Part shown: positions 4,810 to 22,407 of the stretch, piece after piece
Layout of the letters: each line of letters begins with the position of its first letter
How positions within the stretch are numbered: position 1 is the stretch's first letter
NCBI GenBank assembly: GCA_029212415.1
Contig: JARGOF010000024.1
Coordinates: 1 to 57,821, forward strand
Origin: Rhizobiaceae bacterium
GTDB taxonomy: Bacteria; Pseudomonadota; Alphaproteobacteria; Rhizobiales; Rhizobiaceae
DNA: 57,821 nucleotides
Reading direction: 5' to 3'
Translations under genes and position numbers: made by a program
Notes under the pieces: model-generated
Told to the model about the DNA's origin: nothing
The model's input: only the letters and a program-made list of their open reading frames with translations
The model's database searches: none

Positions 4810-5082
4810 TCATGCCCGCTGATTTTTGCGCGCGATCTGGTTCAGCCCGGTAGTCGGGCGATCATTGATTGGCAATTGGGACGCCCAGTAGAGGTCACCG
4901 CGCCCGATCCCCATATCGCGCAAGTCTCTGTCACCCATCGAAGCCAATTCACGAATATGGCGCATGTCCTGATGGCGTTGTGCACGCTGCTTGATGAATC
5001 GTGCAATGCGGCTGAACAACCTGCCGAAGGCATCCTCGACCATAATGGAAATATGGGCGCGTCTGTGGATCATTGTATTCAT
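4810..5082 (-). CDS. small DUF1127 (YjiS-like) protein 2
   Basis: A 90-residue paralogue of the DUF1127 protein at 2325–2570. The diagnostic C-terminal motif is IRELASMGDRDLRDMGIGRGDLYW, here with the typical final Trp. The N-terminal half is an amphipathic basic helix (MVEDAFGRLFSRIARFIKQRAQRH). The start is placed at the ATG at 5082, six bases after CAGGAG; ATGs 66 and 6 bases further upstream are in frame but either lack a ribosome binding site or overlap it. Upstream on the same strand lies GTTTC-rich sequence (5165–5210). Members of this family act as small adaptor or RNA-binding proteins; the partner of this one is unknown. Confidence 0.85.
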   Translation of the reverse strand: MNTMIHRRAHISIMVEDAFGRLFSRIARFIKQRAQRHQDMRHIRELASMGDRDLRDMGIGRGDLYWASQLPINDRPTTGLNQIARKNQRA

Positions 5083-5322
5083 TGTCATCTCCTGTGGTTT
5101 TGACGACGCTTTGAGTGGGTGTCGTCTGGCATCCGTTTCGATGACCACAAGATAGTTCGCCCGCGTTTCAACCGGATTTCACACAGCCGGTTGGATTGTT
5201 TCTTTTGTATCCTTGCGAGAATTCCGAGAATATTTTTATCAAAGCAAATTCAATGAGATAGGTATTTGCGGGCAGAATTGCGTTACCGGATTGAAACATT
5301 GATCGGATAGCAAAATGAAAGA

Positions 5323-5354
5323 CGGCGGCAGGACCTGTCTGTCCTACCGCCGCC
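5323..5354 (-). terminator. hairpin terminator after the lactone/opsin operon
   Basis: CGGCGGCAGGAC and GTCCTACCGCCG form a strong stem of about 11 pairs with one mismatch and a six-base loop. Read on the minus strand it is followed by a T-rich run (CTTTCATTTTG). It lies 70 bases past the gabD stop codon and would end the long minus-strand operon. Confidence 0.7.
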
Positions 5355-5426
5355 ATTGATCGATTGTTGAGGCCCGCGATGCAACCGGGACGAACCCGGC
5401 CATCGCAGCCATCAGGAACCGCTGAC

Positions 5427-6884
5427 CTAGTCTTCGACGCTCATGCAGAGGTATTTGATCTCCAGGAATTCTTCGATCCCGTATTTTGATCCCTCGCGTC
5501 CAAGCCCGGATGATTTGACGCCACCAAAAGGCGCTTCCGCTGTGGAGATAAGACCGGTGTTGATACCGACCATGCCGCACTCGAGCCCTTCGGCAACCTT
5601 CCAGACGCGACTGAGGTCACGGCTGTAGAAATAGCCCGCCAGGCCGAACTCCGTGTCATTGGCCAGAGTGATCGCCTCGTCAACCGTGTCAAAGGCAATG
5701 ATGGGCGCAACAGGACCAAAGGTTTCCTCGTTGAGGATCTTCATTCCCGGCTTCACGTCGATCAGAACAGTTGGCTCATAGAAATTGCCACCCTCATTGG
5801 ACCGGTGGCCACCTGTCAATATGCGGGCGCCCTGTGAGACCGCGTCCTGAACGTGATCTTCAACCTTTTCCAAACCGGCAGCGTCAATCATCGGGCCGAT
5901 GTTGACGCCTTCCTGGGCGCCATTGCCGACCTTCAAGGCGGCTGTAGCCGTTGCCAGCTTGGAGGAAAACGCCTCCAGAACGCCGCGCTGCACATAGATA
6001 CGATTGGCGCAAACGCAGGTCTGGCCGGAATTTCTGTATTTGGCGATCAAGGCACCTTCGACAGCCTTGTCGAGATTGGCATCATCGAAAACGATGAAGG
6101 GTGCATTGCCGCCCAGTTCAAGCGACAGTTTCTTGATGTCATGGGCACATTGCTTCATCAGGATGCGGCCAACTTCAGTCGATCCCGTGAACGTCAGTTT
6201 GCGAACCTTCGCATTGGTGCACAGCTCCATGCCCATGCCCCTGGAGTCCGAGCCGGTGACAATGCTGAAAACACCTTTGGGTATCCCTGCTCTCTCACCC
6301 AGCACGGCCATGGCCAGCGCCGACAGCGGTGTCTTTTCTGCCGGCCGACCGACAAAGGTACAGCCGGATGCAAGCGCCGGTGCGACCTTGCGTGCGATCA
6401 TCGCATTGGGAAAATTCCATGGGGTGATCGAGCCGACAACCCCGATAGGCTGCTTGAGCACGATGATGCGCTTGTCTCCTTGGTGACCGGGAATGACATC
6501 ACCGTAAATACGGCGGCCTTCCTCGGCAAACCACTGAATGAAGCTTGCGCCATAAGCGATTTCGCCGCGCGCTTCTGCAAGAGGCTTGCCCATTTCAGCT
6601 GTCAGAATCTGCGCCAGATCCTCTGTGTTGTCCAGCATCAGCTGCTGCCATGCGAGCAGGATGGAACAGCGTTCTTTCGCTGTCTTGGCAGCCCATTCCT
6701 TTTGTGCCTCATAGGCAGCATCAATCGCAACGCGCACTTCATCGGCGCCCAGGTCTGCGACCCGGGTCAGTTCTTCGCCGGTGGCCGGATTGACCACTGG
6801 ATAGGTGCGTGATCCCGCCTTCCATTCGCCGGCGACATAGGCCCGGTGTTCCATCAGGCTTTTATCCGACAGTTTGATACTCAT
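5427..6884 (-). CDS. gabD: succinate-semialdehyde dehydrogenase (GabD/AttK/BlcA type)
   Basis: NAD(P)-dependent aldehyde dehydrogenase of 485 residues, the family length, predicted to oxidise succinate semialdehyde to succinate. Visible motifs: ITPWNFPNAM (about 153), FTGSTEVG (about 232), catalytic Glu in LELGGNAPF (E256) and catalytic Cys in NSGQTCVCANR (C290). It is the last gene of the minus-strand operon, 30 bases after the iron alcohol dehydrogenase gene and followed by a hairpin terminator. With that dehydrogenase and the lactonase at 19048 it completes the lactone to 4-hydroxybutyrate to succinate semialdehyde to succinate route (Agrobacterium BlcC, BlcB, BlcA). Oddity: the conserved cofactor Lys of the KPA(S/E) motif reads Arg (GRPAEKTP, R180, codon CGG). 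Confidence 0.9.
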   Translation of the reverse strand: MSIKLSDKSLMEHRAYVAGEWKAGSRTYPVVNPATGEELTRVADLGADEVRVAIDAAYEAQKEWAAKTAKERCSILLAWQQLMLDNTEDLAQILTAEMGKPLAEARGEIAYGASFIQWFAEEGRRIYGDVIPGHQGDKRIIVLKQPIGVVGSITPWNFPNAMIARKVAPALASGCTFVGRPAEKTPLSALAMAVLGERAGIPKGVFSIVTGSDSRGMGMELCTNAKVRKLTFTGSTEVGRILMKQCAHDIKKLSLELGGNAPFIVFDDANLDKAVEGALIAKYRNSGQTCVCANRIYVQRGVLEAFSSKLATATAALKVGNGAQEGVNIGPMIDAAGLEKVEDHVQDAVSQGARILTGGHRSNEGGNFYEPTVLIDVKPGMKILNEETFGPVAPIIAFDTVDEAITLANDTEFGLAGYFYSRDLSRVWKVAEGLECGMVGINTGLISTAEAPFGGVKSSGLGREGSKYGIEEFLEIKYLCMSVED

Positions 6885-6914
6885 GGTATTTCCTTTTCAC
6901 ATTGAATCACAAAA

Positions 6915-8072
6915 TCAGTAGGCGGCGCGGTATATGGCCAATGCGTCCGCTTCAGTCACTTCGCGCGGGTTATTGACCAGCAACCTGCTCTGGTTCATGG
7001 CGTCCGATGCCAAACGTGGCAAGAAGTCTTCTGGAATATCCATAGCACGCAGGTTCTGCTGCAGACCACACTCTGCTGACAATTCGGCCAACCGATCACA
7101 AAAAGCCGCAGCCCGTTCCTGGCCTTCCAATCTCATCAGCTCGGGAAAGGCAAAGGGTGCCAGTTCCGCGTAGGGTTGCGGGGCTGTCACTGCGTTAAAT
7201 CGCAACACATGCGGAAGAACCAGGGCATTTGAAAGACCGTGAGGGATGTGGAAATGCCCGCCAAGCGGATAGGCGAGTGCGTGCACGGCCGCCACAGGCG
7301 AATTCGCAAAGGCCTGGCCCGCCAGCATCGACCCCAGGAGCATCTCGGAGCGCGCAACGATGTCATCGCCCTGATGAACAGCCTTGAGAACCGAGCGTCC
7401 CATCAGGGTGAGCGCCTGTGTCGCCAGCATGCGCGACAGGGGGTTGTTGTTGGCGCTGACCGATGCATAGGATTCAATGGCATGCACCATGGCGTCAATG
7501 CCGGTCGCAGCTGTAATATGGGGCGGCAGACCGAGGGTCAGTTCCGGATCCAGCAGTGCGACATCGGGCAGGATGACAGGCGACACCACACCCATCTTTT
7601 CATTTGTGCCTGTGGTGACAATGGAAATCGGTGTCACTTCGGACCCGGTGCCCGCCGTGGTCGGCACAAGGATAAGCGGCAGACGCGGGCCTTTGACATT
7701 GCCGATGCCATACATGGTCTTCAGCGTCTCCTGCCCCAGGGCCAGCACCGAAACCAGCTTGGCGACATCAAGGGACGAGCCGCCGCCCAGTCCGATGACA
7801 CCATCAATTGAGGCTGCTTTGGCCTTGTCCACGGCAGCAAGGATGACGTCTTCAGGTGGATCGGCCTGCACGTCACTAAACATCTCAACGGTCACACCGG
7901 CGGCTTCCAGCACGCCAACAGCCCGCTCGACAATTCCGGTCGTCATCATGCCCGGATCGGTGATCAGGATCACCCGTTCACCGATCTGGTTGCGGGCCGT
8001 TTCACCAAGCTTGCTCAGTTGTCCCGCACCAAACTGGATACTTTTCGACGTGTTGAAGATGAAAGGTGTCAC
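6915..8072 (-). CDS. iron-containing alcohol dehydrogenase (4-hydroxybutyrate dehydrogenase, AttL/BlcB type)
   Basis: Group III, metal-dependent alcohol dehydrogenase of 385 residues. The N-terminal Rossmann half has GLGGGSSLDVAK (about residues 94–105) and PTTAGTGSEVTP. The metal-binding half has GIDAMVHAIE (Asp and His ligands) and HALAYPLGGHFHIPHG (two His ligands). Family members oxidise 4-hydroxybutyrate, 1,3-propanediol, lactaldehyde and similar alcohols. Position between a transporter gene and succinate-semialdehyde dehydrogenase, with an AttM-type lactonase in the same operon, makes 4-hydroxybutyrate to succinate semialdehyde the best assignment. It is 29 bases downstream of the symporter gene, consistent with co-transcription. 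The exact alcohol substrate is inferred from context. Confidence 0.88.
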   Translation of the reverse strand: MTPFIFNTSKSIQFGAGQLSKLGETARNQIGERVILITDPGMMTTGIVERAVGVLEAAGVTVEMFSDVQADPPEDVILAAVDKAKAASIDGVIGLGGGSSLDVAKLVSVLALGQETLKTMYGIGNVKGPRLPLILVPTTAGTGSEVTPISIVTTGTNEKMGVVSPVILPDVALLDPELTLGLPPHITAATGIDAMVHAIESYASVSANNNPLSRMLATQALTLMGRSVLKAVHQGDDIVARSEMLLGSMLAGQAFANSPVAAVHALAYPLGGHFHIPHGLSNALVLPHVLRFNAVTAPQPYAELAPFAFPELMRLEGQERAAAFCDRLAELSAECGLQQNLRAMDIPEDFLPRLASDAMNQSRLLVNNPREVTEADALAIYRAAY

Positions 8073-8101
8073 ATTATTCTCCTTGATTTCATGAAAAGTG
8101 T

Positions 8102-10051
8102 TCAGCTTCCGAAGCTGAATGCGACAAGAACAACCAGAATGAATGCCAATGCACCGGTGACAACCAGTTTGCGCAATCTCTCGCCTTCGACCCGCGTTTG
8201 GTCATGATGGAGGGTTCTTGGCGGTTCATAGGCTGGAATATCCATCAGGTATGGGCTGGCCATCTCCATTTTGTAAGACAGAAACCATATCAGTCCCACG
8301 CCCAGCGCCCAAAACAAAAGGGCCCATGCCCAGATCGACGGCATGCCTACCGACCATGCGCCACCAGAGGCATCAACGGTCCCGAAGGCAAAATTGCTAA
8401 AAACCAGCCCCGGTCCGACAGCCAGGAAAATCCACGCCAGGGCAACCGACCAGGCTGCTGCGCCCAGGACCCTCGCCCGCGGCCCCATGCGAAGGGTGCT
8501 TTGCACAAAACGGCGTGCTTCCTGCGCTTCGGCGCCAAAGGCATTGCGGTTGGTAATCGCCGATATGATCAGGACGGCCGCAATGTTTGCGGCCATGCCC
8601 CAGGCAGCCGAATGGATGGTCCATGGCCACCGGCCCCAGGGCAGTTCCAGACCGAGGAAGGACAGAACTTCATAGCCCATTGTTTCGGTCAGCAGCACAC
8701 CGGCAATACCGAAACCAACCCCCACGGTCGCTGCAGCCGGCGTGATCCAACGCAGCCATGTAATGCCCAGCAGCGGTGTCCAGAGCTGGAATGCCAACGG
8801 CAGGGCCAAGGCGCCAAGGGCGGACAGGGCCACGGGCGTCAGCGATTGCATCAAGACAGAAACGAGTGCCAGCAAGGCAATGACGATCCGGGTCAGATTG
8901 ACCGTGGCCACCCGTGACAGACTGCTGTGAAAATAGGGTTTGTAGATATGGCGCACCAGGCCCTCGCCGGCCGTCAGCAAACCCAGTCCCGCAAGCAATT
9001 GAACACCTGCAACAGCGCCCAGAAACAGCCACGCCATGAACCAGGGTGAAGCGGCCTGAAGCTGCGCAAGCATGCCGCCAAGCGACAATTGCGGATTGAT
9101 CAGGCCGGCAGTGCCAATGATTGCCATACCGAAGGCAATGATGCCGCCGACAATGCCGGCCATCACCCAGGTCTGGCCTGCGGCAAAGCCGTTGGCATTG
9201 CGTGTCGAAAGAACAATTTTGGCCGCCAGCGGGCTGGCCTGGAACCCCATGAATGCCATCGCAACACTCAAACTGGTCAGTGCCGTTTCCGCATGTCCCA
9301 TGACCGCGTCACGCCCAAGACCAGCGGAAAACCGGATAACCCCGGCAACCTGGAACAATCCGGCACCGTCCGGGCTTTGCGCCAATGTCTGCAACCCGGC
9401 GTTCAATGCAGCAAAACCGCCGCTGCTCATCAGTGCAAATCCGGCCAGGCCGACGATTGCCGTGAAGGCAAGAACGGATTGGATGACACCGAAATAGCCA
9501 ACAGCGCGCATGCCGCCGATACCGACATAGGCAAAAAGCACGACGCCAAGAAAAAGGCTGGCAACCAGCGGCGAAACCATCCCGCCGCTCAGCATTCCGA
9601 TCAGTTCCGACAAGGCCCGCAATTGCAAACCAGCGAAGCCGACGGCAAAGACAACAGCCACCACCACCGAAACAACGACGAGGAATTTGCTGTCGAAATA
9701 GCTGCGAAAAAGTTCCGCCTGAGACGACAGGCGCAAACGCTGACCAACAAACCACATCCGCTTGAAAAACAGCACACCCGGTAGAGCCAGCACGATCCCC
9801 GCCTGCAAAACGCCTGGTTGGGCAAAGCCGCGAGCAGCTATCTCCGCGCTGCCGCCCAGCAAAAACCAGCCCGACAGACTGGCCGCAGCAAGCGTCAGGG
9901 CGGAAATCCAGGGAGACAGTGAATGACCGGCGGAAAAATAGGTCTCGTGATTGCCGTTCTCACGTGCAGCGACGCGTGTCCAGAACAGCATGACTGCAAC
10001 ATAGAAAAGGGCATACAACGGCAGCCAGACGAGGTTTCCGGCATTGATCAT
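8102..10051 (-). CDS. sodium:solute symporter family transporter
   Basis: A 649-residue polytopic membrane protein, with at least 13 hydrophobic helices spread over the sequence. It begins outside-in, as SSS proteins do (NLVWLPLYALFYVAVMLFWT), followed by the conserved TM1–TM2 region with YFSAGHSLSPWISALTLAAASLSGWFLLG. Other landmarks are the Gly-rich VGIGGMRAVGYFGVIQS segment and a hydrophilic loop near residue 500. Family members import organic anions, amino acids, sugars or polyols with sodium. The start ATG overlaps the stop of the small membrane protein gene upstream (ATGA), so the two are translationally coupled and may form one transporter. In this operon the likely cargo is a carboxylate or hydroxyacid related to 4-hydroxybutyrate; that is inference. 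Confidence 0.85.
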   Translation of the reverse strand: MINAGNLVWLPLYALFYVAVMLFWTRVAARENGNHETYFSAGHSLSPWISALTLAAASLSGWFLLGGSAEIAARGFAQPGVLQAGIVLALPGVLFFKRMWFVGQRLRLSSQAELFRSYFDSKFLVVVSVVVAVVFAVGFAGLQLRALSELIGMLSGGMVSPLVASLFLGVVLFAYVGIGGMRAVGYFGVIQSVLAFTAIVGLAGFALMSSGGFAALNAGLQTLAQSPDGAGLFQVAGVIRFSAGLGRDAVMGHAETALTSLSVAMAFMGFQASPLAAKIVLSTRNANGFAAGQTWVMAGIVGGIIAFGMAIIGTAGLINPQLSLGGMLAQLQAASPWFMAWLFLGAVAGVQLLAGLGLLTAGEGLVRHIYKPYFHSSLSRVATVNLTRIVIALLALVSVLMQSLTPVALSALGALALPLAFQLWTPLLGITWLRWITPAAATVGVGFGIAGVLLTETMGYEVLSFLGLELPWGRWPWTIHSAAWGMAANIAAVLIISAITNRNAFGAEAQEARRFVQSTLRMGPRARVLGAAAWSVALAWIFLAVGPGLVFSNFAFGTVDASGGAWSVGMPSIWAWALLFWALGVGLIWFLSYKMEMASPYLMDIPAYEPPRTLHHDQTRVEGERLRKLVVTGALAFILVVLVAFSFGS

Positions 10052-10470
10052 CGACCTGAGTCCTCACTCACCGCAGTCTTCACATGGAAACGCGAGAAGG
10101 CGCCACGCAGACCATGGCGGGTCGACAGATAGGCAATGAAGCCAACGATCAGGATCGAAAACAGGGTCAGGCCGGAGTAATAGTCGACCATTGACATGCT
10201 TCCCGAGAGCACCCCGGCGATGAACGTAAACGTCAAGACGCCGAAGGCGCCGATGCCAAGCACGGTCTCACCGGGCCTGAAGCCCTGCTGAAACAGGAAA
10301 TTGACAATGATATGGGCAACAAATGCGGCCACGATGAGTGCAGTCCCCAATAGACAGACAAAATAGGAATCACGCGTAAAACCCTCGAGCAGAAACGCAA
10401 GTCCGGCAAAACCGAGTACGGCCCAGATTGAAAAGACGAGCAGGTCGCGTTCTGTATTCGGCGTCGACAT
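10048..10470 (-). CDS. small four-helix membrane protein, likely symporter partner
   Basis: A 140-residue protein of unknown family with four predicted membrane helices (about residues 8–27, 33–58, 70–92 and 97–116) and a short basic cytoplasmic tail (TRHGLRGAFSRFHVKTAV). The stop codon overlaps the start of the symporter gene by four bases, and the flotillin gene ends 57 bases upstream. The coupling suggests a small subunit or chaperone of the symporter, in the manner of the small membrane proteins paired with some sodium:solute symporters. I do not recognise a defined domain, so the role remains a proposal from gene order. Confidence 0.75.
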   Translation of the reverse strand: MSTPNTERDLLVFSIWAVLGFAGLAFLLEGFTRDSYFVCLLGTALIVAAFVAHIIVNFLFQQGFRPGETVLGIGAFGVLTFTFIAGVLSGSMSMVDYYSGLTLFSILIVGFIAYLSTRHGLRGAFSRFHVKTAVSEDSGR

Positions 10471-10527
10471 GGCGGGGTCTCCGGTGGATCAGGCCACCCG
10501 GGAGCCTGGGCTCCCGGGTAACGCACA

Positions 10528-12225: not shown

Positions 12226-12282
12226 TGGAGTGTCCCTTTACTATTCGTCTGATTGGCGCGCTTGCGAAAGGCGCAATTGATA

Positions 12283-12984
12283 TCAGGCATTGTCAGGCCT
12301 TTCGCTGTCCAGAACGGCGGTTGCCAGAAGGGCCAGACCGAACGCCATGCGATTGAGGAAATCGGCCAGGTTGTAGGCGACGCTCAAGGCGCCGCTGTCC
12401 ACATAGCCACCGAAGGAGGTGATGAAATTGCCAAGCGGGTAAATCGCCCAGCCAACAGTCACAATAAGGCGCAGCCAGAAAAAGCCGCGCTGCACGGGTT
12501 CGCGTAGCGATCCGCGAATGGTTTCATCCATCTGGCCGAAGAACAATTCGCCGAGAATGTAGAGCCAGAAAACCAGACCGATGAGAAAAGCGAGCGTGGC
12601 GTGCATGAAACCCGCCTCGCCCAGATAGCGAACGAACACCATCAACACCGAAACCACCACCAGTCGCCAAAACAAACCGATGCTCATCCGTCCGGCCTGA
12701 TTGGCCATGAAATAGAGCGCCAGAATCTGCAATGGCATGGATATGGTCCAGCCGACATAATGATAGACGATGGGTACGTTGCCAGCCGTCGCCCAGGCCG
12801 TTCGGGCCTCAAACATGGCACCAACGCCGACCAGAGCGGCCACGGCACACAAGGCCACGGCAATTTTCCAGCCGCGTGCAACCCAGGCAGATCCCAACAA
12901 CAGCAGTACCGATGTCGCGACCAGTCCGTAAAGAGCCACTGAATAGCTTGCGGCGGCCAGATCGGTGGTTTCGAACACTGCCAT
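12283..12984 (-). CDS. type 1 opsin homologue lacking the retinal lysine (noK rhodopsin)
   Basis: A 233-residue seven-helix protein clearly related to proteorhodopsin. Helix F/G identity is striking: VGWAIYPLGNFI (about 177–188) and VAYNLADFLNRMAFGL (about 202–217) match the proteorhodopsin segments GWAIYPVGYF and YNLADFVNKILFGL. The residue at the Schiff-base lysine position is Arg (R212, codon CGC at 12349–12351), so retinal cannot be bound covalently in the usual way. Helix C YHYVGWTISMPLQILA (74–89) aligns with FRYIDWLLTVPLQMVE: the counter-ion Arg is His75, the proton-acceptor Asp is Gly78 and the proton-donor Glu is Ala89. The helix G Asp (D208) and tuning Gln (Q86) remain. The gene is intact, 50 bases after the ABC permease and 57 before flotillin, so it is maintained as a protein. 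A non-light sensory or structural role is inferred. Confidence 0.92.
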   Translation of the reverse strand: MAVFETTDLAAASYSVALYGLVATSVLLLLGSAWVARGWKIAVALCAVAALVGVGAMFEARTAWATAGNVPIVYHYVGWTISMPLQILALYFMANQAGRMSIGLFWRLVVVSVLMVFVRYLGEAGFMHATLAFLIGLVFWLYILGELFFGQMDETIRGSLREPVQRGFFWLRLIVTVGWAIYPLGNFITSFGGYVDSGALSVAYNLADFLNRMAFGLALLATAVLDSERPDNA

Positions 12985-13034
12985 ATTACGCTCTCCCTTC
13001 GATTGAATATCTGTGTGTCATTGCTCAGGCTTTC

Positions 13035-14402: not shown

Positions 14403-15823
14403 TCAGCCTCCACGTTCACAGGTGGCGCATTCGGACCACCCGGATGGCGCATCATATAGGCGCCGAGCACCACCAGCGCCAGGATGACGACGGCCACGAC
14501 CGGAGCCAGATTGCGCCTGTCCGATTGGGAGAAGGCCACCCTTAGGAAAACCGCAATAACCACCATCAAAAGGATGAACAGAATCACCGGTGCAGCGGCA
14601 GCACGCATGGCGCTTTCCTGCTGGTTGGGCGCCGCCACTTCGAGTGGCGCAACATACAATTGTTCCCGGTCGATCGGCGTAAGCATCTGTGACGACAATG
14701 CCGGTTGATCGGCGCCCGTCTCCGGCTGATCCTGTCCCTGGGACTGATAATCGAATGTCGCGTGCAGGATCACACTGAGCGCAACGACCGACAGGGCGAC
14801 GAAATATAGCAAGGGCGAAAAGTTACGCAAATGTCTCTGGATGAAGGGAATGATCAGTGTCAACAGCAAGGACACGACGAGGATCGTTCCATAGGCCAGG
14901 TTGGTGACGAAACTCTGCACCGCGCCAAAGTTGAACGTCGCCAGCACAAAGGTGATCAAATAGAGGTTGATGGCACCCAGGAATGAGCCGAACACCCCAC
15001 CTCGCCCACCGGCCAGAGATGCACCGCCAAGCACCAGCGCCGTCACCGCAATCAGCGTGTAGGTTGTTCCCTGTGAGGGATCGCCTGAGGATATCAGCGC
15101 GGTGAAAGCAATGGCCGCAAGGCCGGCAAAACAACCGGAAATGAGATGTGCGCCAATCCGCACCACGAAAATGGGAACACCGCTGGTATAGGCAGCACGC
15201 TCGTCCGATCCCATAAGGCGCAGGTGGGTGAAGAAAGCGGTCTGGGTAAACAGCATCCAGCCCAGCGACGCCAGCACCAGAATCAACAGCACGGGTGAGA
15301 AAATCGAGGTGCCGAGTCCCCAATCCGCCATCCATTGCGGGGCAACGCCACCGGGGCGCGGCAGGATCACCAGATTGAGGCCAGACAGGGCAAGATAGCC
15401 CGACAGCGAAACAATGATCGGCTGCACCCTCACATAGATCACAATCAGGGCAAAGAGCAGTTGATAGGCCGCACCAACCGCAATCGCATAGGCAAAGACG
15501 GCAAGCGGACTTTCCAGCACACCGGCGCCATGCAGCTGGATCAGCGTCACATTGACAAATCCGATCAGCGGCCCGACTGAAAGATCAACGGTGCCGCGCC
15601 CAGCGATCACCACGGCCATCAGCGCATAGGTGGCAAGGATCAGCGGTGTCGCAACGATGACCGCGCTGCCAATACCGGCACTGGTGATCAGGCTTGGCGA
15701 ACGCAGCACGGCCAGACCGAGCAACAGGAAAAACAGACTGATCGGCACCAGCAGGAACGGATAGGAACGCCCGCCCTGTGACGGTGCTGCTGCTGCGTCA
15801 GGAACCACTGTAGCCTCGCTCAC
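14399..15823 (-). CDS. sugar-type ABC transporter permease 1
   Basis: A 474-residue permease of the RbsC/XylH class. The conserved stretch GRGTVDLSVGPLIGFVN (about 75–92) corresponds to the family's GGIDLSVG motif, with Arg replacing the second Gly. VSLSGYLALSGLNLVILP and TALVLGGASLAGGRGGVFGSFLG are also typical. About 130 extra C-terminal residues follow the usual core: a hydrophilic Gln/Glu-rich segment (about 365–405) and two further helices. Both neighbours overlap it by four bases (ATGA), so translation of ATPase, permease 1 and permease 2 is coupled. Unusual extensions in both permeases suggest a specialised subfamily. Confidence 0.9.
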   Translation of the reverse strand: MSEATVVPDAAAAPSQGGRSYPFLLVPISLFFLLLGLAVLRSPSLITSAGIGSAVIVATPLILATYALMAVVIAGRGTVDLSVGPLIGFVNVTLIQLHGAGVLESPLAVFAYAIAVGAAYQLLFALIVIYVRVQPIIVSLSGYLALSGLNLVILPRPGGVAPQWMADWGLGTSIFSPVLLILVLASLGWMLFTQTAFFTHLRLMGSDERAAYTSGVPIFVVRIGAHLISGCFAGLAAIAFTALISSGDPSQGTTYTLIAVTALVLGGASLAGGRGGVFGSFLGAINLYLITFVLATFNFGAVQSFVTNLAYGTILVVSLLLTLIIPFIQRHLRNFSPLLYFVALSVVALSVILHATFDYQSQGQDQPETGADQPALSSQMLTPIDREQLYVAPLEVAAPNQQESAMRAAAAPVILFILLMVVIAVFLRVAFSQSDRRNLAPVVAVVILALVVLGAYMMRHPGGPNAPPVNVEAE

Positions 15824-17652
15824 CGGGTCACCTGTCGTGGTTGTAGCGTATCATGATCAAATTCGACGATCTTGATCGGCTTGCCCTTGGTTTTGGCATC
15901 CTGGCTCTTGATGTCACGGCTGGAATGATCCGGATCGGTGCGAACTGTGGTCGTTTCGACTCGTGCCTGCCTATGTGTGGCGGGTTTCAACGCATCAGGC
16001 ACGACAACCTTCACCCGTACACCATCTGCAGACGCAGACACGCCACGCGATGCAACGGCGGCCTGGCTGGGCAGCAAACCGTATTCAGTCGTCAGACCTT
16101 CTCCGCCTGTCTGTCCGAACATGGCCTCGAGAATGGTTTTGGGATCCAGTTGGCGACCGTCAAATGCATCAAAGGGCGCCCCATCGCGAAATACGATAAC
16201 CCGCGTCGCAAACCCCATGAATTCTTCCAGCTCAGAGGACATATAGACAACGGTTTTGCCCTCCTGGGCAAATTCCTTGAGGTGTTTGTAAAGCTCTGCC
16301 TTGGCGCCGACATCAATGCCGCGGGCCGGATCGTTGAGCACAATGACATCGGGTCGCATGGCAAATCCGCGCCCGATCAACACTTTTTGCTGGTTACCAC
16401 CCGACAGAGACGTGATCTTGTCATCGCGCATGCCGAACTTGATCATCAGGTTTTCGGTTTCGCGTTTGAAAATCGCTCCCAATGTAACGCGATCAATAAC
16501 GCCCAGAATTCCGCCGCGCTTTTTCTCGCGGTAGAGCGGCATGACCATATTCTCGAAGATCGACAGCGAAGCGAAGATGCCTTCGCGCTTTCTGTCGCCT
16601 GATACATACGTGATGTTATGGGCAACGGCCTCGGCGAGATTGCGGACGGGCTGCATTTCACCATGGTTGTCGCGGATCTGGATCAGACCATGTTCTGCCT
16701 CTTGAACCCCTGCCAACACCCGGACAAAACCGTCCTGTCCCTGACCGTCCAGTCCGGCCACACCGACAATTTCACCGCGACGCAATTCGAAATCAAACTG
16801 CTTTCCATCAGGCCAAACAGCCAGATCATTGGCCTTGAGCGCAACCACATTGTCGTGCGGCTGTGGCGCCAGATGGGGATGGTGGGCATCGCCCTGATCT
16901 TCGCCTGTCATCAGGGCAAGCAGGTTTTTCTCGGTAATGTCTTCCGTTTCCAGCACCCCGACGTCGCGCCCGTCACGCAGCACGGTGGCGCGGTCGGATA
17001 TGCGGATCAATTCGGCAATGCGGTGTGTCACGATCAGCACCGTGGTTCCGCCGTCGCGAAGATCGCGCATCTTGGCGAACAGCCGCTCGGTGCTGTCGAA
17101 GTCGAGTGCAGCGGAACTTTCATCCAGAATCAGGATCTTTGGTTCGCTCAAAAGCGCCCGCGCGATGGTGATCCATTGTTTCAGACCAAGGGGAAGTGTT
17201 CCCACCAGGGTAAAGGGATCGACCACTTCACCAGACAATTCGTGCATCAGTTCGGCGGCGCGCTGAACCTTGCGTTCCTGCGACATCTTTTTGGTAAAGA
17301 GGGAATCGGCGCCCATGAAAATATTGTCGACCACCGAACTTTCATCAGCAACCAGGACCTCCTGGTAGACGGTGGATATGCCAAGCGCCCGGCTCTCTGC
17401 CGGTGTTGACGGGGTCTCGCCCAGAATGGAGACTGATCCGCTATCGATCGGCAGGATGCCCGAGACAACCTTTGCCATCGTGCTCTTGCCGCAACCATTG
17501 CCCCCGACAACGGCGTGAATCTCCCCCGCACGAGCAGAAAAGCTCGCGCCGTCAAGCGCGCGCGTCGGCCCGAAGTACTTCTTCACATTGCGCACCCCCA
17601 TCGTACCAGGTTGGGGCGCATGTGTTGTGTTATCTGTGGGTTGCCGGGACAT
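15820..17652 (-). CDS. sugar-type ABC transporter ATPase (RbsA/MglA class)
   Basis: Fused double ATPase that energises the importer. With the start at 17652 it has 610 residues; longer frames would run into the binding-protein gene. The first domain has Walker A GGNGCGKSTMAK and ILILDESSAALD. The second has the degenerate Walker A region GLDGQGQDGF usual in this class, LSGGNQQKVLIGRG and PARGIDVGAK. About 90 extra C-terminal residues follow the normal end (after ILEAMFGQTGG), low in complexity and charged. They include KIVEFD (594–599), the same hexapeptide that opens the lactonase of this operon. No strong ribosome binding site is visible at 17652, so the start is the least certain point. 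Confidence 0.88.
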   Translation of the reverse strand: MSRQPTDNTTHAPQPGTMGVRNVKKYFGPTRALDGASFSARAGEIHAVVGGNGCGKSTMAKVVSGILPIDSGSVSILGETPSTPAESRALGISTVYQEVLVADESSVVDNIFMGADSLFTKKMSQERKVQRAAELMHELSGEVVDPFTLVGTLPLGLKQWITIARALLSEPKILILDESSAALDFDSTERLFAKMRDLRDGGTTVLIVTHRIAELIRISDRATVLRDGRDVGVLETEDITEKNLLALMTGEDQGDAHHPHLAPQPHDNVVALKANDLAVWPDGKQFDFELRRGEIVGVAGLDGQGQDGFVRVLAGVQEAEHGLIQIRDNHGEMQPVRNLAEAVAHNITYVSGDRKREGIFASLSIFENMVMPLYREKKRGGILGVIDRVTLGAIFKRETENLMIKFGMRDDKITSLSGGNQQKVLIGRGFAMRPDVIVLNDPARGIDVGAKAELYKHLKEFAQEGKTVVYMSSELEEFMGFATRVIVFRDGAPFDAFDGRQLDPKTILEAMFGQTGGEGLTTEYGLLPSQAAVASRGVSASADGVRVKVVVPDALKPATHRQARVETTTVRTDPDHSSRDIKSQDAKTKGKPIKIVEFDHDTLQPRQVTR

Positions 17653-17717
17653 TCTGTGTCGGGCACCAATGCGTTTAAACGTTCGGGGGCAATCACAACG
17701 TTGGCCCCGCGCCATTA

Positions 17718-18893
17718 TTATTTTGCGACGTATTTTTTGGGATCGGCAGGCTTCAGGAAGAAGTCGTCCAGATATTCCGGTGAACCGCCCCAACGATCAG
17801 CACCAACGGCAAGCCAATCAGGTGTGTTGAGGCTGCAATCTTCTGCCATGACCTTGGCCAGATCGTCATAGGTCATCTTGATCGGATCAACGAGAATGGA
17901 CTGGATCTTTGGTCCCTGTCCCTGCAGCGTCCGCATCATGATGTTCCAGATCAGCTGCATTTCATCAGCTGGCGGCCAGACCTGATAGGATGCATTGATA
18001 TAATCGGGATTCTGGCGCCAGTAACACAGGGCTCCCAATTCGCCACCGATTGCCACAGGCACGTCACCGCGACCAGACTGCTGGACCGCCCTGAGAACAC
18101 CCATTTCGGCTGCAGACTGAACCACAATGGCATCGAGCTTGCCTGGATGGGTTGCGAGCCATTTCTGCACTTCACCCTGGGCAACCTGGTCAGTCCACAT
18201 GCCGGCAACAGAACCAACAACCTTGATACCGGGTGCGGAGGCCAGGCCAGCCTTCACGCCACGGTCCTGGCTGTCAGAACCGGATGTGCCGGGAATGCCT
18301 TCGACAACCAGCACATTGCCTTCGCCACCGATCTGTTCGGCCATGTTCTTGCCGATTTCAAATCCGGCAACCTGATAGTTGACCGAGGAATTGATCGAAT
18401 AGGGTGATGTCAGGTAACCGGTCAACGAGAACACCGGCACGCCCTTGTCAGCGGCATATTGCACGGTCTGATTCAAAGCCGTTGGATTGGAACAGCACAC
18501 GATGATGGCGTCGACGCCCTGATCGACCAACTGACGCATCTGCTGGATCTGGGTGGAATCATTGAGGTTTGACTGGGTGATGACAACTTCGTCAAGCAGA
18601 CCGAGTTCTTTCCATTCTGGAATGATGACGTTCTGCAATTCGTTCATTGCACCCGCACGCCAGGTATTGCCGGCATAGGAGCTGGCGTAACCGATTTTCC
18701 ATGGTGGCGGGTTCTTGGCGACAAAATCCCGCCAGGCACTGGGGCCAACCGGCTGTGCCGGATCGAGCATATCGGGGTTGTAGAGCCGGGCTGCAACATC
18801 CGGGTTGATTTCATCGACACCTTCGGCCTGAACACCGATGACGCTAAGCGCCAACAGTCCTGCCGCCAGCGCGAACTTGCTGATCAGTTTCAT
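17718..18893 (-). CDS. sugar-type ABC transporter substrate-binding protein
   Basis: Periplasmic binding protein of the ribose-binding (Peripla_BP_4) type, 391 residues from the ATG at 18893, which follows AGAGGAG by about nine bases. The signal peptide is clear (MKLISKFALAAGLLALSVIGVQA). The fold is recognisable from IGYASSYAGNTWRAGAMNEL, QQMRQLVDQGVDAIIVCCSNPTALN and VVEGIPGTSGSDSQDRG. It is the first gene of the importer set, 66 bases before the ATPase gene. The ligand is unknown; the sequence is longer than simple ribose-binding proteins and has extra N-terminal residues (EINPDVAARLYNPDMLDP). Confidence 0.9.
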   Translation of the reverse strand: MKLISKFALAAGLLALSVIGVQAEGVDEINPDVAARLYNPDMLDPAQPVGPSAWRDFVAKNPPPWKIGYASSYAGNTWRAGAMNELQNVIIPEWKELGLLDEVVITQSNLNDSTQIQQMRQLVDQGVDAIIVCCSNPTALNQTVQYAADKGVPVFSLTGYLTSPYSINSSVNYQVAGFEIGKNMAEQIGGEGNVLVVEGIPGTSGSDSQDRGVKAGLASAPGIKVVGSVAGMWTDQVAQGEVQKWLATHPGKLDAIVVQSAAEMGVLRAVQQSGRGDVPVAIGGELGALCYWRQNPDYINASYQVWPPADEMQLIWNIMMRTLQGQGPKIQSILVDPIKMTYDDLAKVMAEDCSLNTPDWLAVGADRWGGSPEYLDDFFLKPADPKKYVAK

Positions 18894-19047
18894 AAGATAC
18901 GTCTCCTCTGTCGTGTTTAAAGACACTTGCCTCCCAAGGAACACTCCGTGGTTGGTACTTTGTGGACATGCATTGCAATGCGCTTCGCAATTCCTTTGCC
19001 GTCCCTATCGTCCGTCCGGTTCAATCGCGACTGGTCGCGCAGGCGGA
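18894..19047 (-). promoter_or_regulatory. possible internal promoter region with 12-bp palindrome
   Basis: A 154-base gap, the largest inside the minus-strand run, separates the lactonase from the transport genes. It contains the perfect palindrome GCATTGCAATGC (18970–18981). The gap could hold a second promoter or an mRNA processing site, so the 13 genes may form two transcripts. No convincing -35/-10 pair was identified. Confidence 0.35.
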
Positions 19048-19983
19048 TCAATCATAAAAATCGTATGGCGCCTTTTGAAAGGTCTCCCAATTGTCCGGAT
19101 CATGGCCAGTCACCAGCATCGCATTCGTATCATCGGCAATGCGCCGCAGTTTGGCGACGGAATTGGCCGCATCGCTTGAAGACACAACCAGACCAGGCAA
19201 GGCCTTGTTGTTCCAGTGGTCCAGCGTATAGGCGGCATCAATCGTCAACAGCACCGGCCCGGTATTGGGCAATGTGATCAGAAAGGACATGTGACCGGTG
19301 GAATGGCCTGGCGTGAAGATGGTGCGGATGGTGCCATCGCCAAAAAGATCAAAATTGTCGGAATATTCTCCGCCAAGGAATTTCCAGTCCAGACCCGGTC
19401 GATCAAAATCGGCCCTGATATAGGCACCCTCGGCAAACCATTGCGGATTGAAGGCGTATTCATATTCTGCCCGCTGGACAATATGCTGCGCCTTGGGAAA
19501 GTGGCCTATGGCCCCTGTATGATCGAGATGAAGATGCGACTGCAGCACATAACGCACATCGTTCGGTTCGACACCGACAAGGCGACACTGATCAACACAA
19601 TTGTCTGCGATATTCATCACCGGATCATAGGCATCGACGACGGCGCCCCAATGCCCACGCTTGTCGATTGCTGCTTCCACGGCGTTTCCGCCATCGATCA
19701 CCACATTGCCCATCGGGTGCTTGATCAGGAACCATGGAACCGGAATCTCGAAATCATCGTCTCCCTGGTTCATCTTGATATATTTGACTTTTGTACGCAA
19801 AGTTCCGGTCTGGAACATGTGCAATTCGATGCCTGAGGAGCGGCGCGTGCGGCGCGCCGGATTCGGCGCATGGCTGCTGAAGACTGGCCGCGGCGCCAGA
19901 TTGCTGGTGCCTGATTTCGACGAAACCGCAGCGCTGTCGACTTCCACCTGCTGGCCTTTATCATCGAATTCTACGATCTTCAT
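19048..19983 (-). CDS. AttM/BlcC-type lactonase (metallo-beta-lactamase fold)
   Basis: Zinc lactonase closely resembling Agrobacterium AttM/BlcC, which opens gamma-butyrolactone and acyl-homoserine lactones. The metal motif HLHLDHTGAIGHF supplies H150, H152, D154 and H155; IVQRAEYEYAF, FTPGHSTGHMSF and LTIDAAYTLDHW follow in family order. From M56 onward the length is 256 residues, the normal AttM length. A 55-residue extension precedes it, Ser/Arg/Pro-rich and starting MKIVEFDD. The longer start at 19983 is preferred because AAGGG lies about ten bases upstream and M56 has no ribosome binding site. The hexapeptide KIVEFD also occurs in the tail of the operon's ATPase. The product 4-hydroxybutyrate would go to the downstream dehydrogenases. 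Confidence 0.92.
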   Translation of the reverse strand: MKIVEFDDKGQQVEVDSAAVSSKSGTSNLAPRPVFSSHAPNPARRTRRSSGIELHMFQTGTLRTKVKYIKMNQGDDDFEIPVPWFLIKHPMGNVVIDGGNAVEAAIDKRGHWGAVVDAYDPVMNIADNCVDQCRLVGVEPNDVRYVLQSHLHLDHTGAIGHFPKAQHIVQRAEYEYAFNPQWFAEGAYIRADFDRPGLDWKFLGGEYSDNFDLFGDGTIRTIFTPGHSTGHMSFLITLPNTGPVLLTIDAAYTLDHWNNKALPGLVVSSSDAANSVAKLRRIADDTNAMLVTGHDPDNWETFQKAPYDFYD

Positions 19984-20020
19984 GAATTTAACCCTTGGTT
20001 TCTGTCTTGCAGATTGTCGT

Positions 20021-20887
20021 TCACGCAGGCGCTGATGACGCGGTCTTGTTTTCGATGATGTGGAGCGCTTCTTTCAGATAAACGGCAAACAGCGGATAGT
20101 TTTCCGACATTGGAAAATGGCCGATATCTTCCATCTCTATGTAGATGCCACCCGGGATCTGACGGGCCGTGTTTTCGGTCGCATCCGGAGGCGTCAGATA
20201 GTCATAGGTACCGGTCATCATGATCACCGGACAGCGTCGCGTGTCGATATTGCCCAACTGCCCGCGCATATCGTGGTCGACCGAGTAGAAATGCAGGTCG
20301 CCTTTGAACACTTCGGCGCCCTGTGTGTAGTAATGCCAAGTCTGCCAACGGTCCATTTCAGGACTTTGCGGCGCCATCAGATCCCACACGCCGGAAGCGC
20401 ATACCTGCGCGGCATTCGCATGGGGATGCCGCCACAGGTCGAGGAAAAAGCCTGGTGCATGTTCGGCGGCTTCAACGGGGATCACTGCCCGGAACTTGTC
20501 GGGATGGTGCAGCGCCAGTTGCAGCGCCACATTGCCGCCAAAGGATGACCCCATGAAAATCGGCCGGTCAAGTTCCAGCGCATCGCAGAACGTGGTGATG
20601 AAATTCATAAAATGCTCAGCGGTCAGAAGATACTCTTCTTTCCACCATTCACGATTCGTCGGCGGATCGGACTTGCCGTGACGCGCCAGATCATAGGCGA
20701 TCACGTCATAATTGGCCGTGATCTCCGGGTCTTCAAGCAATCCGCGCCACTGGTGATTGTGACAGCCTGCCGTGTGCTGGCAAACCAAAGGCACGCCCGT
20801 GCCATTGCGCAGATAGAAGACCTTGTATTCGTAACCGTCGACGTCGATGGTAACGTATCGACCGACTACCGGTGAGTGCTTGGCCAT
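20021..20887 (-). CDS. alpha/beta hydrolase
   Basis: A 288-residue serine hydrolase with the usual order of motifs: oxyanion region PLVCQHTAGCHNHQW, nucleophile elbow FMGSSFGG (S115), acidic residue in MTGTYDYLTPPD and catalytic His in MEDIGHFPMSE. No signal peptide, so it is cytoplasmic. The start at 20887 has GGAG six bases upstream; an ATG 12 bases earlier is in frame but overlaps that site. It sits 37 bases before the lactonase gene and 58 after the SCP2-like gene. It may release hydroxyacids or lactones from esters before the lactonase acts. The substrate cannot be read from sequence. Confidence 0.85.
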   Translation of the reverse strand: MAKHSPVVGRYVTIDVDGYEYKVFYLRNGTGVPLVCQHTAGCHNHQWRGLLEDPEITANYDVIAYDLARHGKSDPPTNREWWKEEYLLTAEHFMNFITTFCDALELDRPIFMGSSFGGNVALQLALHHPDKFRAVIPVEAAEHAPGFFLDLWRHPHANAAQVCASGVWDLMAPQSPEMDRWQTWHYYTQGAEVFKGDLHFYSVDHDMRGQLGNIDTRRCPVIMMTGTYDYLTPPDATENTARQIPGGIYIEMEDIGHFPMSENYPLFAVYLKEALHIIENKTASSAPA

Positions 20888-20945
20888 ACCGGACTCCATG
20901 AAATTTCAAAAATGTCTGGGTGCTTCAACGAAATGGGTGCCGCGC

Positions 20946-21335
20946 TCATACCGGCACACCGACCTTGCGCAGAAGTTCGAATTGAACGGTGAAATTGCGC
21001 AGGTTTTGCATCAGGGCAAGCGTATTGCCTTCGATCTTCAGATCACGGCGAAAACTCGCCGACCAGATGCCGTGAAACATCGGAGCCGGGATCGGCCGGG
21101 CAAATTCACGCCAGGTCTGCGGGCTTGCACGCAGGGCAAAATCATAGGCATCCATCGGGGCAGGATCGACATTGATACGATAAACTTTGCCATCAACCAT
21201 CTCGACGATGACTTTGGCCGTCCCCATGTCCCACAAATAGGTACATGTGAAATATTTGGCCATTGCCCCAATCGTCTGGTCACGATCCGACGCTTCGCTG
21301 AACCGCACGGCCCAGTCTCTCACGCTCATCACCAT
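20946..21335 (-). CDS. SCP2-like small protein
   Basis: A 129-residue cytoplasmic protein with weak resemblance to sterol-carrier-protein-2-type domains: alternating strands such as AKVIVEMVDGKVYRINVD and a DLKIEGNTLALMQNLRNF segment like the SCP2 C-terminal helix. Such domains bind hydrophobic ligands. First gene of the minus-strand cluster, divergent from the IclR regulator. The ATG at 21335 is preferred because GGGGAG lies seven bases upstream. The family assignment is tentative; what is solid is that it is a conserved-looking, correctly spaced gene in this cluster. Confidence 0.65.
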   Translation of the reverse strand: MVMSVRDWAVRFSEASDRDQTIGAMAKYFTCTYLWDMGTAKVIVEMVDGKVYRINVDPAPMDAYDFALRASPQTWREFARPIPAPMFHGIWSASFRRDLKIEGNTLALMQNLRNFTVQFELLRKVGVPV

Positions 21336-21539
21336 AGAATTTCTCCCCGAAGCCACACCGCAATTTTCCGGAAGCCCTCCGGTGACGCGCAGTGTGATCT
21401 GTACAGAACAGGTTCAATACAACCAGCATTGAAGGCAGTTCAGTATACTGAACACATTTCCGTAGACAGAACCATAGCCATCGGGTTAGATACCTGTCAA
21501 GAAAAACATAGATTCAGACTTCGGAATCCGGGAGAATTC
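21336..21539. promoter_or_regulatory. divergent control region between the lactone operon and iclR
   Basis: A 204-base gap with divergent starts on either side (21335 minus, 21540 plus). It contains the perfect palindrome described at 21438–21453 and, just before it, TTCAAT and ATTGAA arms spaced nine bases apart (21413–21433). This is the expected place for IclR repressor control in attJ–attKLM-like loci. Confidence 0.6.
21438..21453. promoter_or_regulatory. perfect 16-bp palindrome, likely IclR operator
   Basis: GTTCAGTATACTGAAC is identical to its reverse complement. It lies 102 bases from the SCP2-like start and 86 bases from the regulator start, in the middle of the divergent region. 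IclR proteins bind palindromes of this size as dimers. It is the best operator candidate for the regulator at 21540. Confidence 0.65.
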
Positions 21540-22331
21540 ATGAAGCACGAAGACTCCAAATCCAAATTGGTACCGGCACTTGAACGCGGAGCGCGAATCC
21601 TTGATCTGATTGCACGCTCAAGGAGTTATCCGAGCCTGTCGCAGATCGCGCGGGAAGTGGGTATCCCCAAGAGCAGTGCCCATACCCTGTGCAACACGCT
21701 GATCCAGCTTGAATTGCTGATTCGCCGTCCCGATCAGACGTTCCAGCTTGGTCCGCACGTCATGCGGTGGTCAAACGCCTTTACCCAACAATCGGATGTG
21801 GCTGCGGAATTTGCCGCCATGTGGGACCAGGAAACCGAATTTCCAGGCGCCACCATCACATTGTCTGTCCTTGATGGCGCTGAAGTGGTCTATATTGCCG
21901 CACGCAACTCGGCCGTCAGCCATTCATTGATCGATTTCAAGGCGGGAATGCGCCTGCCCGCTGCATTCACAGCAACCGGCAAGGCATTTCTCAGTCATAT
22001 GAGCGATTTTGAAGTGCGACGGATTTTTGCCGATGGCCTGCCCGAGCAACGCACCCCCCATAGCGTTACGTCCCTGGAAGACCTCATTTCCGACCTGCAG
22101 TCCATTCGCAAGAATGGATATTCCCTTGACGACCAGCAAGTGGCCGAAGGCATCGTCTGCTACGGCGCCTCGGTACTGGATTCGCGCAACAAGCCGATGG
22201 CCGGCATTGCCGTCAGCGTGCAGGCAGAGCAGGTTTCCGAAGCTGAAAAGAAACGGATTATCTCCAATGTCCAGCGCATGGCCGCGCGGCTGTCGGTGCG
22301 GATGGGTGCTGATATGAAAAGGTCGGCATAG
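21540..22331 (+). CDS. IclR-family regulator (AttJ/BlcR-like by position)
   Basis: A 263-residue IclR-type transcription factor. The winged helix-turn-helix is at about 10–70 (LVPALERGARILDLIA, YPSLSQIAREVGIPKSSAHTLCNTL) and the ligand domain at about 85–255 (VVYIAARNSAVSHSLIDFKAGMRLPAAFTATGKAFLSH). The ATG at 21540 is chosen because GGGAG lies six bases upstream; the open frame continues upstream across the divergent control region without a plausible start. Agrobacterium BlcR, an IclR protein that responds to succinate semialdehyde, sits divergent from blcABC in the same way, so this is probably the repressor of the cluster. Ligand and mode of action are inferred. Confidence 0.88.
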   Translation: MKHEDSKSKLVPALERGARILDLIARSRSYPSLSQIAREVGIPKSSAHTLCNTLIQLELLIRRPDQTFQLGPHVMRWSNAFTQQSDVAAEFAAMWDQETEFPGATITLSVLDGAEVVYIAARNSAVSHSLIDFKAGMRLPAAFTATGKAFLSHMSDFEVRRIFADGLPEQRTPHSVTSLEDLISDLQSIRKNGYSLDDQQVAEGIVCYGASVLDSRNKPMAGIAVSVQAEQVSEAEKKRIISNVQRMAARLSVRMGADMKRSA

Positions 22332-22407
22332 GCAACATCAGACCCGGCCTGTTCCTGCGCTGGATGAGTCACTGGCCGGTAAAGGCAGTCGACCAGGCCG
22401 ATGGTCG

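Follow-up and report, generated by a model that had tools for sequence, protein, structure and literature searches.

A lysine-less, Arg-type flotillin-associated rhodopsin within a transporter operon of alphaproteobacteria

The stretch of DNA analysed here (the window; 57,821 nucleotides, contig JARGOF010000024.1 of assembly GCA_029212415.1, from a Rhizobiaceae bacterium) carries a gene for a proteorhodopsin-like protein of 233 amino acids in which arginine takes the place of the Schiff-base lysine. A previous reading of the letters alone (the sequence-only reading) had singled the gene out but gave no strand; it lies on the minus strand, where the frame is intact from the ATG at 12984 to the stop at 12283, and the plus-strand reading of 12283–12984 holds two stops. 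The gene is part of an operon of 13 genes on that strand, running from about 21335 to 5427 in the order SCP2-like protein, alpha/beta hydrolase, lactonase, substrate-binding protein, ATP-binding cassette (ABC) ATPase, permease 2, permease 1, opsin, flotillin, a 140-residue membrane protein, sodium:solute symporter, iron-containing alcohol dehydrogenase and succinate-semialdehyde dehydrogenase (Table 1). Spacing around the opsin gene is tight, as had been proposed, with 50 bp from the permease stop and 57 bp to the flotillin start as measured between the ends of the open reading frames. A promoter-like match just 5' of the first gene and a terminator-like hairpin just 3' of the last make a single transcript plausible from the sequence. 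A search of positions 5000–22500 against Rfam gave no match.

The opsin is a member of the proteorhodopsin family as judged from its Pfam match (Bac_rhodopsin, E 3e-21, 76 bits against a cut-off of 24.6), its matches in the PDB and its place in phylogenetic trees. The best PDB sequence matches are 9r21 and 9r23, both entered as "flotillin-associated rhodopsin" (E about 1e-44), followed by the Med12 proteorhodopsin 4jq6 (E 1e-36). An AlphaFold2 model built from 17 aligned sequences, that of the window among them, has the seven-helix fold (mean predicted local distance difference test score, pLDDT, 86.2; predicted template modelling score 0.85), and its closest fold matches are again 9r21 and 9r23 (template modelling score 0.90, 1.6 Å), which according to the entry titles are PsFAR and its H84V/E120G double mutant; third in rank is 8cnk, a retinal-free proteoopsin with decanoate. 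Two sequences with masked bases (L010 and L015) were excluded from both structure alignments and L009 from the second as well. Alignment to proteorhodopsins bore out the residues named in the sequence-only reading: Arg212, encoded by CGC (reverse complement of 12349–12351), stands at the Schiff-base position, His75 replaces the proteorhodopsin Arg, Gly78 the acceptor Asp and Ala89 the donor Glu, Gln86 and Asp208 are kept, and the GWAIYP and YNLADF stretches are present. None of the residues of a retinal-binding pump (Schiff-base Lys, acceptor Asp, donor Glu) is found in the window opsin. A pairing of Arg212 with Asp208 is compatible with their i/i+4 spacing and with the fact that L072, the Arg-type sequence that has diverged furthest, carries Glu at position 208.

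The protein is a flotillin-associated rhodopsin (FArhodopsin) of an Arg type, i.e., a distinctive variant, in a distinctive setting, of a kind already described. In a tree rooted on three distant opsins (30 of the 53 sequences of a larger tree plus five more, L082 omitted) the split uniting the window clade with Lys-bearing FArhodopsins (9r21, L029/L030, L039/L041), and not with pumping proteorhodopsins, had an ultrafast bootstrap value of 98, and the same split had 99 in the larger, midpoint-rooted tree, from which six sequences identical to others and two copies of the window opsin (L001 and L020) had been dropped. As the branches are long, the gene neighbourhood held in common carries more weight. 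The flotillin gene, which the sequence-only reading had missed, follows the opsin gene directly on the same strand. Marine FArhodopsin clusters are described as including hydrolases and Fe-dependent alcohol dehydrogenases as well as a sterol-carrier-like protein, an inner membrane translocator and a sodium symporter (PMC10308929), and the window has all of these companions if its ABC permease is read as the equivalent of the translocator and if a sterol-carrier match below the cut-off is accepted. On the other hand, the DTT, DTL or DNI motif of FArhodopsins is replaced by H-G..S..A (H75, G78, A89), a difference that is taken as marking a sub-group rather than as excluding the protein from the family; the window's operon holds BlcR-, BlcC- and succinate-semialdehyde dehydrogenase-type genes, an arginine stands at the position of PsFAR E120, and the genomes are of 3–7 Mb without a second opsin or a match to the retinal-forming enzyme Blh. 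No bona fide proteorhodopsin was found elsewhere in the window's genome, but its presence is an association in FArhodopsins and not a definition of them.

The strangeness attributed to the lysine-less opsin is accordingly less than was thought, as FArhodopsins with Arg have been reported: in the sections of PMC10308929 considered here, most freshwater FArhodopsins lack the Schiff-base Lys and have Gln, Thr, Leu or Arg in its place, and flotillin is always present where the contig is long enough. The same sections, published in 2023 and based on single-cell genomes and metagenomes, state that the function of FArhodopsins could not be established and that the presence of a separate proteorhodopsin in freshwater carriers could not be determined, and they name no cultured carrier; the main text nowhere uses the terms "permease", "lactonase" or "butyrolactone". 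A literature search on rhodopsin and Hoeflea, judged by titles and the beginnings of abstracts, gave nothing about these genes, and no paper for PDB entries 9r21–9r23 was found under PsFAR or under rhodopsin, flotillin, cryo-EM and proteorhodopsin since 2024; subscription papers and preprints lay outside the scope of both searches.

What is new is a coherent Arg-type FArhodopsin clade in alphaproteobacterial genomes, some of them of cultured strains. With identical ones removed, 24 distinct Arg-type sequences were obtained from 18 named loci (found by peptide patterns of the query, which favours close relatives), from nine of 151 genomes of the family, the window's own among them, and from G713, a genome of another family of the same order. 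R212 and G78 are present in all 24, D208 in 23 (Glu in L072), A89 in 23 and H75 in 22 (one masked, one Pro). Three named records are isolates (Hoeflea alexandrii, Zhengella mangrovi and Roseovarius litoreus) and the other 15 are metagenome-assembled genomes with labels such as Rhizobiaceae, Phyllobacteriaceae, Hoeflea, Cohaesibacter and Roseovarius; these carriers belong to the Hyphomicrobiales and Rhodobacterales. The proposal that the gene is under selection was upheld. Relative to the nearest relative (L002, 98% identical) the ratio of nonsynonymous to synonymous substitution rates (dN/dS) is 0.009/0.262, about 0.035, and among 21 sequences 135 of the 210 pairs have dS below 1.5, the ratio in these having a median of 0.15 and reaching 0.27 at most. 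R212 is encoded by CGC, CGG and CGA in 11, eight and two of these sequences, respectively, and H75 and D208 by two codons each. A pseudogene or passenger in decay would fit with the loss of all light residues, but is ruled out by the low dN/dS and the three synonymous R212 codons, and no internal stop occurs in the 24 sequences (two contain masked bases); its probability is practically negligible.

Alignment to bacteriorhodopsin, a stretch of which served for numbering, placed W79, W179, Y182, P183 and D208 of the window opsin at conserved positions of the retinal pocket. R119 falls on bacteriorhodopsin G122, beside the retinal ring, and on PsFAR E120, and N186 falls on bacteriorhodopsin W189, a Tyr in proteorhodopsins. 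All 35 aligned sequences share W79, W179, Y182 and P183, but in the 13 of Arg type both the Lys end and the ring end have become Arg, R119 being present in every one. The two ends of the pocket thus look plugged, by R119 and R212. In the PsFAR double mutant (9r23) E120 is changed to Gly and H84, whose counterpart here is M83, to Val, which is read from the entry title as an opening of the pocket. The Arg clade and PsFAR thus seem to have a blocked ring end in common, though the charge is opposite. It is not a rule for the family, as the Lys-type sequences L029, L030, L039 and L041 have Ala or Gly at this position.

The partners expected of a light-driven protein were also missing. The window's genome (5.84 Mb, 99% complete) gave a single opsin match, and one opsin was found in each of 25 Arg-type genome entries (two pairs have identical coordinates, so there are probably 23 genomes); completeness is stated for some of them only, in one case at 88%, and G713 stood outside this search. 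Blh, the one retinal-forming enzyme searched for, had no match in any of the 25 entries. Lycopene cyclase matches in the window's genome (G000) are weak, the best at 7.6e-6, with 10 of the 12 matches listed extending no further than position 145 of 380; as the family (PF05834) is unspecific and matched at least 10 of 14 control genomes including E. coli, only match strength is informative. A proton pump or a classic photosensor is rejected on account of the missing residues and the lack of a Blh match, and the Arg-type opsin would carry no retinal in vivo. A photosensor of another sort, in which retinal or another carotenoid derivative is bound non-covalently, would account for the conserved pocket aromatics, but with no Lys, no counter-ion, an Arg at the ring end, no Blh match and such weak cyclase matches it is very unlikely. 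Much the same can be said of a hetero-oligomer with a proton-pumping proteorhodopsin, as proposed for marine FArhodopsins and Rh-noK in the parts of PMC10308929 considered here. Such a partnership is possible in two genomes which have Blh and a second opsin (G409 and G487; here labelled HIMB59-like, for their size of 1.4 Mb, their DNI motif and their cluster genes), but in the window's genome and the other Arg-type carriers searched the single opsin and the lack of a Blh match largely rule it out, and it is regarded as highly improbable. Lys-bearing FArhodopsins (L029–L031 and L062–L064) also occur in three genomes of 4.0–4.5 Mb (G335, G429 and G507) in which neither a second opsin nor a Blh match was found, and these are possibly intermediate between the marine and the Arg-type forms.

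The operon around the opsin is conserved to a high degree. Both permeases, the opsin, flotillin, the small membrane protein and the symporter occur in the same order in all 18 named loci, the ATPase in all 17 that reach that far, and the hydrolase, lactonase and binding protein in all 16 that reach them; the iron-containing alcohol dehydrogenase was found in 17 of 17 and the succinate-semialdehyde dehydrogenase in 15 of 17. Stretches of five further genomes (L067–L070 and L072) all have the genes between hydrolase and symporter, both included, in the same order; the succinate-semialdehyde dehydrogenase is seen in L072 only, L067 and L068 being cut off nearby by the end of the stretch or contig. 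Within the family, the nine genomes of 151 that have the opsin are exactly those with full-length permease 1, with a flotillin orthologue of at least 80% identity and with an alpha/beta hydrolase of at least 84% identity. A clear gap separates these from the homologues next in rank (E up to 1e-60), which reach no more than 59% for the permease, 53% for flotillin and 42% for the hydrolase; the permeases among them do not align over the first 130 residues. This N-terminal extension of permease 1 evolves faster than the core and contains several hydrophobic stretches, about four helices' worth in a hydropathy scan. In opsin-less transporter clusters (L058, L060 and L061) the permeases have 324–348 residues against 455–474 here, and in L059 the permease lies within a frame of 679 amino acids; an aldehyde dehydrogenase gene is next in L058–L060.

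A homologous cluster with a lysine-bearing opsin exists as well. In L062–L064 and L065/L066 the opsin, 35–41% identical to that of the window, is flanked by the same permease and by a flotillin, with a hydrolase of 77–79% identity; the HIMB59-like clusters have an AttM-like lactonase (57–62% to the window's) together with LamB_YcsF (PxpA), biotin-carboxylase and dimethylformamidase-like genes. Conservation is much stronger in the hydrolase than in the opsin, so the chemistry is the stable core of the cluster and the opsin its variable part. The sequence-only reading had named Lys-bearing orthologues in the same operon as evidence that would speak against it, and such relatives are in part what was found, in a homologous cluster. 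This is read as showing that Lys is dispensable for the role common to Lys- and Arg-type members; alternatively, the Lys-type members may still use it.

Two proteins of the operon have a short peptide in common. KIVEFD occurs in the ATPase tail (residues 641–646, coded at 15856–15873) and at the N-terminus of the lactonase (residues 2–7, coded at 19963–19980), both on the minus strand. A DNA pattern for [KR]-I-[VIM]-E-F-D, in which Arg was allowed only as AGR, matches nowhere in the 5.84-Mb genome except at these two sites, and the reversed control has no match. Among 23 orthologous loci the lactonase motif is kept in 21 of the 21 that reach it and the ATPase motif in 18 of 22. In the Lys-type clusters L062 (6191–6526) and L064 (13454–13789) a frame of 111 amino acids between ATPase and permease 2 holds four KIVEFD-like copies and a fifth, degenerate one, and L062 lacks the strict motif in its ATPase and lactonase frames, as does L066 in every frame examined. 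The peptide is read here as a putative docking tag that would couple import to hydrolysis.

The operon looks built for the uptake and breakdown of lactone-type compounds. Curated cut-offs are exceeded by the lactonase (NF045700, 430.4 bits against 390) and by the succinate-semialdehyde dehydrogenase (TIGR01780, 702.9 bits against 646.35), and the best PDB match of the divergent regulator is BlcR (3mq0, 7e-50; the next is at 2e-19). In Agrobacterium, the blcABC genes convert gamma-butyrolactone to succinate under control of BlcR, as outlined in the sections of PMC3907764 considered here, and an IclR-type regulator, an AttM-family lactonase, an iron-containing alcohol dehydrogenase and a succinate-semialdehyde dehydrogenase are common to the two systems. 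The present operon differs in its length, as an ABC importer, a symporter, the opsin, flotillin and an extra alpha/beta hydrolase are added, and in that some lineages lack one or both dehydrogenases beside it. Its substrate may be a lactone- or ester-type compound entering metabolism at 4-hydroxybutyrate.

An opsin that is lysine-less, intact, under selection and encoded in a transporter operon is likely to have a role other than pumping or retinal photochemistry, so that the suggestion of "another function" in the sequence-only reading stands. The further suggestion of a sensor or regulatory subunit of the transporters fared unevenly: the link to the transporter is strengthened by co-inheritance, but a sensor in particular is not supported. 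No transducer gene is found among the genes of the operon, although a histidine kinase and response regulator are encoded just outside it, and a chemotaxis-type sensor acting through a transducer is rejected for this reason. The reading preferred here, tentatively and at somewhat less than even confidence, is that the opsin needs no light and serves in the membrane as subunit or organiser of an uptake complex which flotillin scaffolds and which feeds lactone or ester breakdown. The opsin fold would have been kept and its light chemistry given up, with Schiff-base Lys, counter-ion Asp and donor Glu gone and Arg119 at the ring. The protein would work in the dark, in a structural or gating role, tying the ABC importer to the flotillin scaffold by docking on the extra membrane helices of the permeases. 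In the microdomain so formed a lactone- or ester-type substrate would be imported, handed to the hydrolase and lactonase of the operon, and passed via 4-hydroxybutyrate and succinate semialdehyde to succinate. It is tempting to go further and regard the opsin as an obligate subunit of the ABC importer, with the permeases docking the opsin, flotillin as scaffold and KIVEFD coupling import to breakdown in one metabolon. This stronger form is on balance doubtful; if true, FArhodopsins in general would be parts of transporters and not photoproteins.

Several observations weigh against the preferred reading. Linkage and co-inheritance, from which the putative contacts of the opsin with permease and flotillin are deduced, could reflect shared regulation alone; the permease 1 model is too poor (pLDDT 48.5) to show a docking domain. 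Hydrolases of 67–71% identity occur in G346 and G829 on short contigs where no opsin was seen, the hydrolase lying near an end; the opsin was not found elsewhere in G346, and for G829 the search covered the short contig. The Lys-type relatives retain Lys in the homologous cluster, hence its loss is not required for the common role, and Blh, to which the search for retinal-forming enzymes was confined, is not the sole conceivable route to retinal. As to the substrate, the binding protein resembles sugar binders and the alcohol dehydrogenase passes no cut-off for 4-hydroxybutyrate dehydrogenase. No succinate-semialdehyde dehydrogenase gene adjoins the operon in L017 and L019 (Roseovarius), which reach far enough, and L069 and L070 have neither dehydrogenase beside it. 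The dehydrogenase tail is therefore the least fixed part, which weakens the blc interpretation without removing it.

Two other light-independent roles have to be considered. The opsin could be a phospholipid scramblase or an organiser of lipid domains together with flotillin (and the SCP2-like protein), the transporter being a mere client. This is a serious rival, because actinorhodopsin scrambles lipids without retinal (according to the sections of PMC12805836 considered here), and it is compatible with a flotillin microdomain. The flotillin neighbour, the weak SCP2 match of the 129-residue partner of the hydrolase (E 0.07, below the cut-off) and the decanoate-bearing, retinal-free proteoopsin among the fold matches all point the same way. 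A lipid role does not, however, explain by itself the exact co-inheritance with lengthened permeases and hydrolase, and is considered unlikely, though not lightly dismissed. Alternatively, the emptied retinal pocket could bind a lactone or acyl substrate and either gate the importer or signal to the cell. Such a ligand sensor would agree with a pocket frame that is invariant while its Lys and ring ends have changed to Arg, and lysine-less opsins of haloarchaea have been proposed to sense stimuli other than light in the parts of PMC4915679 considered here. It is made quite unlikely by the lack of a transducer gene in the operon, by the apparent plugging of the pocket ends, and by the BlcR-like regulator, which may already sense the catabolic substrate class.

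Among other lysine-less opsins, the haloarchaeal and fungal opsin-related proteins have also replaced the Schiff-base Lys, in group A by Arg (PMC4915679, sections as above), but group A has an adjacent HAMP/MCP transducer of which no equivalent was found here, and the parent clade of the present protein is proteorhodopsin. The betaproteobacterial Rh-noK, as described in those parts of PMC10308929, is likewise a lysine-less proteobacterial type-1 opsin; the tandem functional proteorhodopsin that accompanies it was not found here, nor any second opsin. The present branch occurs in named isolates in which no other opsin was found, and the operon enzymes point to a testable substrate class, hence the question of function can be approached by ordinary knock-outs, and what has been lost in strangeness is gained in testability. 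If the opsin is indeed a part of the transporter, the fold of a light protein has been reused for a role in the dark by a path that can still be traced, as Lys-bearing relatives persist in the cluster.

Table 1. Genes and candidate control elements of the opsin operon (positions in the window).
Feature	Positions	Strand	Remarks
Arg-type flotillin-associated opsin, 233 aa	12283..12984	-	H75 G78 S82 Q86 A89 R119 N186 D208 R212
Flotillin, 565 aa	10528..12225	-	Band_7 and Flot domains
ABC permease 1, 455 aa	13035..14402	-	N-terminal membrane extension of about 130 aa, not aligned by opsin-less homologues
ABC permease 2, 474 aa	14399..15823	-	C-terminal extension
ABC ATPase, ribose/galactofuranose type	15820..17793	-	KIVEFD in C-terminal tail; start may be over-called
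Periplasmic substrate-binding protein	17718..18944	-	Peripla_BP_4; start may be over-called
AttM/BlcC-family lactonase	19048..19983	-	N-terminal MKIVEFD
Alpha/beta hydrolase	20021..20899	-	77-79% identical even in Lys-type FArhodopsin clusters
129-aa protein, partner of hydrolase	20949..21335	-	Weak SCP2 (sterol-carrier) match, below cut-off
IclR-type regulator, divergent	21540..22331	+	Closest PDB match BlcR
Palindrome TTCAGTATACTGAA, candidate operator between regulator and operon	21439..21452		TTCA-N6-TGAA in 5 of 6 loci holding the whole intergenic region
Promoter-like match, best of 5000-22500 (10/12), upstream of operon	21471..21500	-	Consensus match only
140-aa membrane protein overlapping symporter gene	10048..10470	-	No Pfam family
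Sodium:solute symporter family protein	8102..10051	-
Iron-containing alcohol dehydrogenase, candidate 4-hydroxybutyrate dehydrogenase	6915..8072	-	No equivalog cut-off passed
Succinate-semialdehyde dehydrogenase	5427..6884	-	TIGR01780 over cut-off; not beside operon in several orthologous loci
Terminator-like hairpin after last gene, most pairs of scan (14)	5321..5354	-	Consensus match only

The candidate operator, TTCA-N6-TGAA, is present in the window and in L067–L070 and absent from L072. Another such site, differing at two positions, is found at 22613–22626, within the gene of a response regulator. The longest open reading frame at the IclR-type regulator (20847–22331) over-calls the protein by about 231 codons, its first part being antisense to the gene of the 129-residue SCP2-like protein. 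Just outside the operon, beside its regulator, an OmpR-type response regulator and a PAS-containing hybrid histidine kinase are encoded at 22408–25358. Farther along the window, at 30860–32850, the gene of an amidase (allophanate-hydrolase-like) adjoins that of an isochorismatase-family hydrolase (RutB/biuret-hydrolase-like), a pair that possibly belongs to a ureide or biuret-type pathway.

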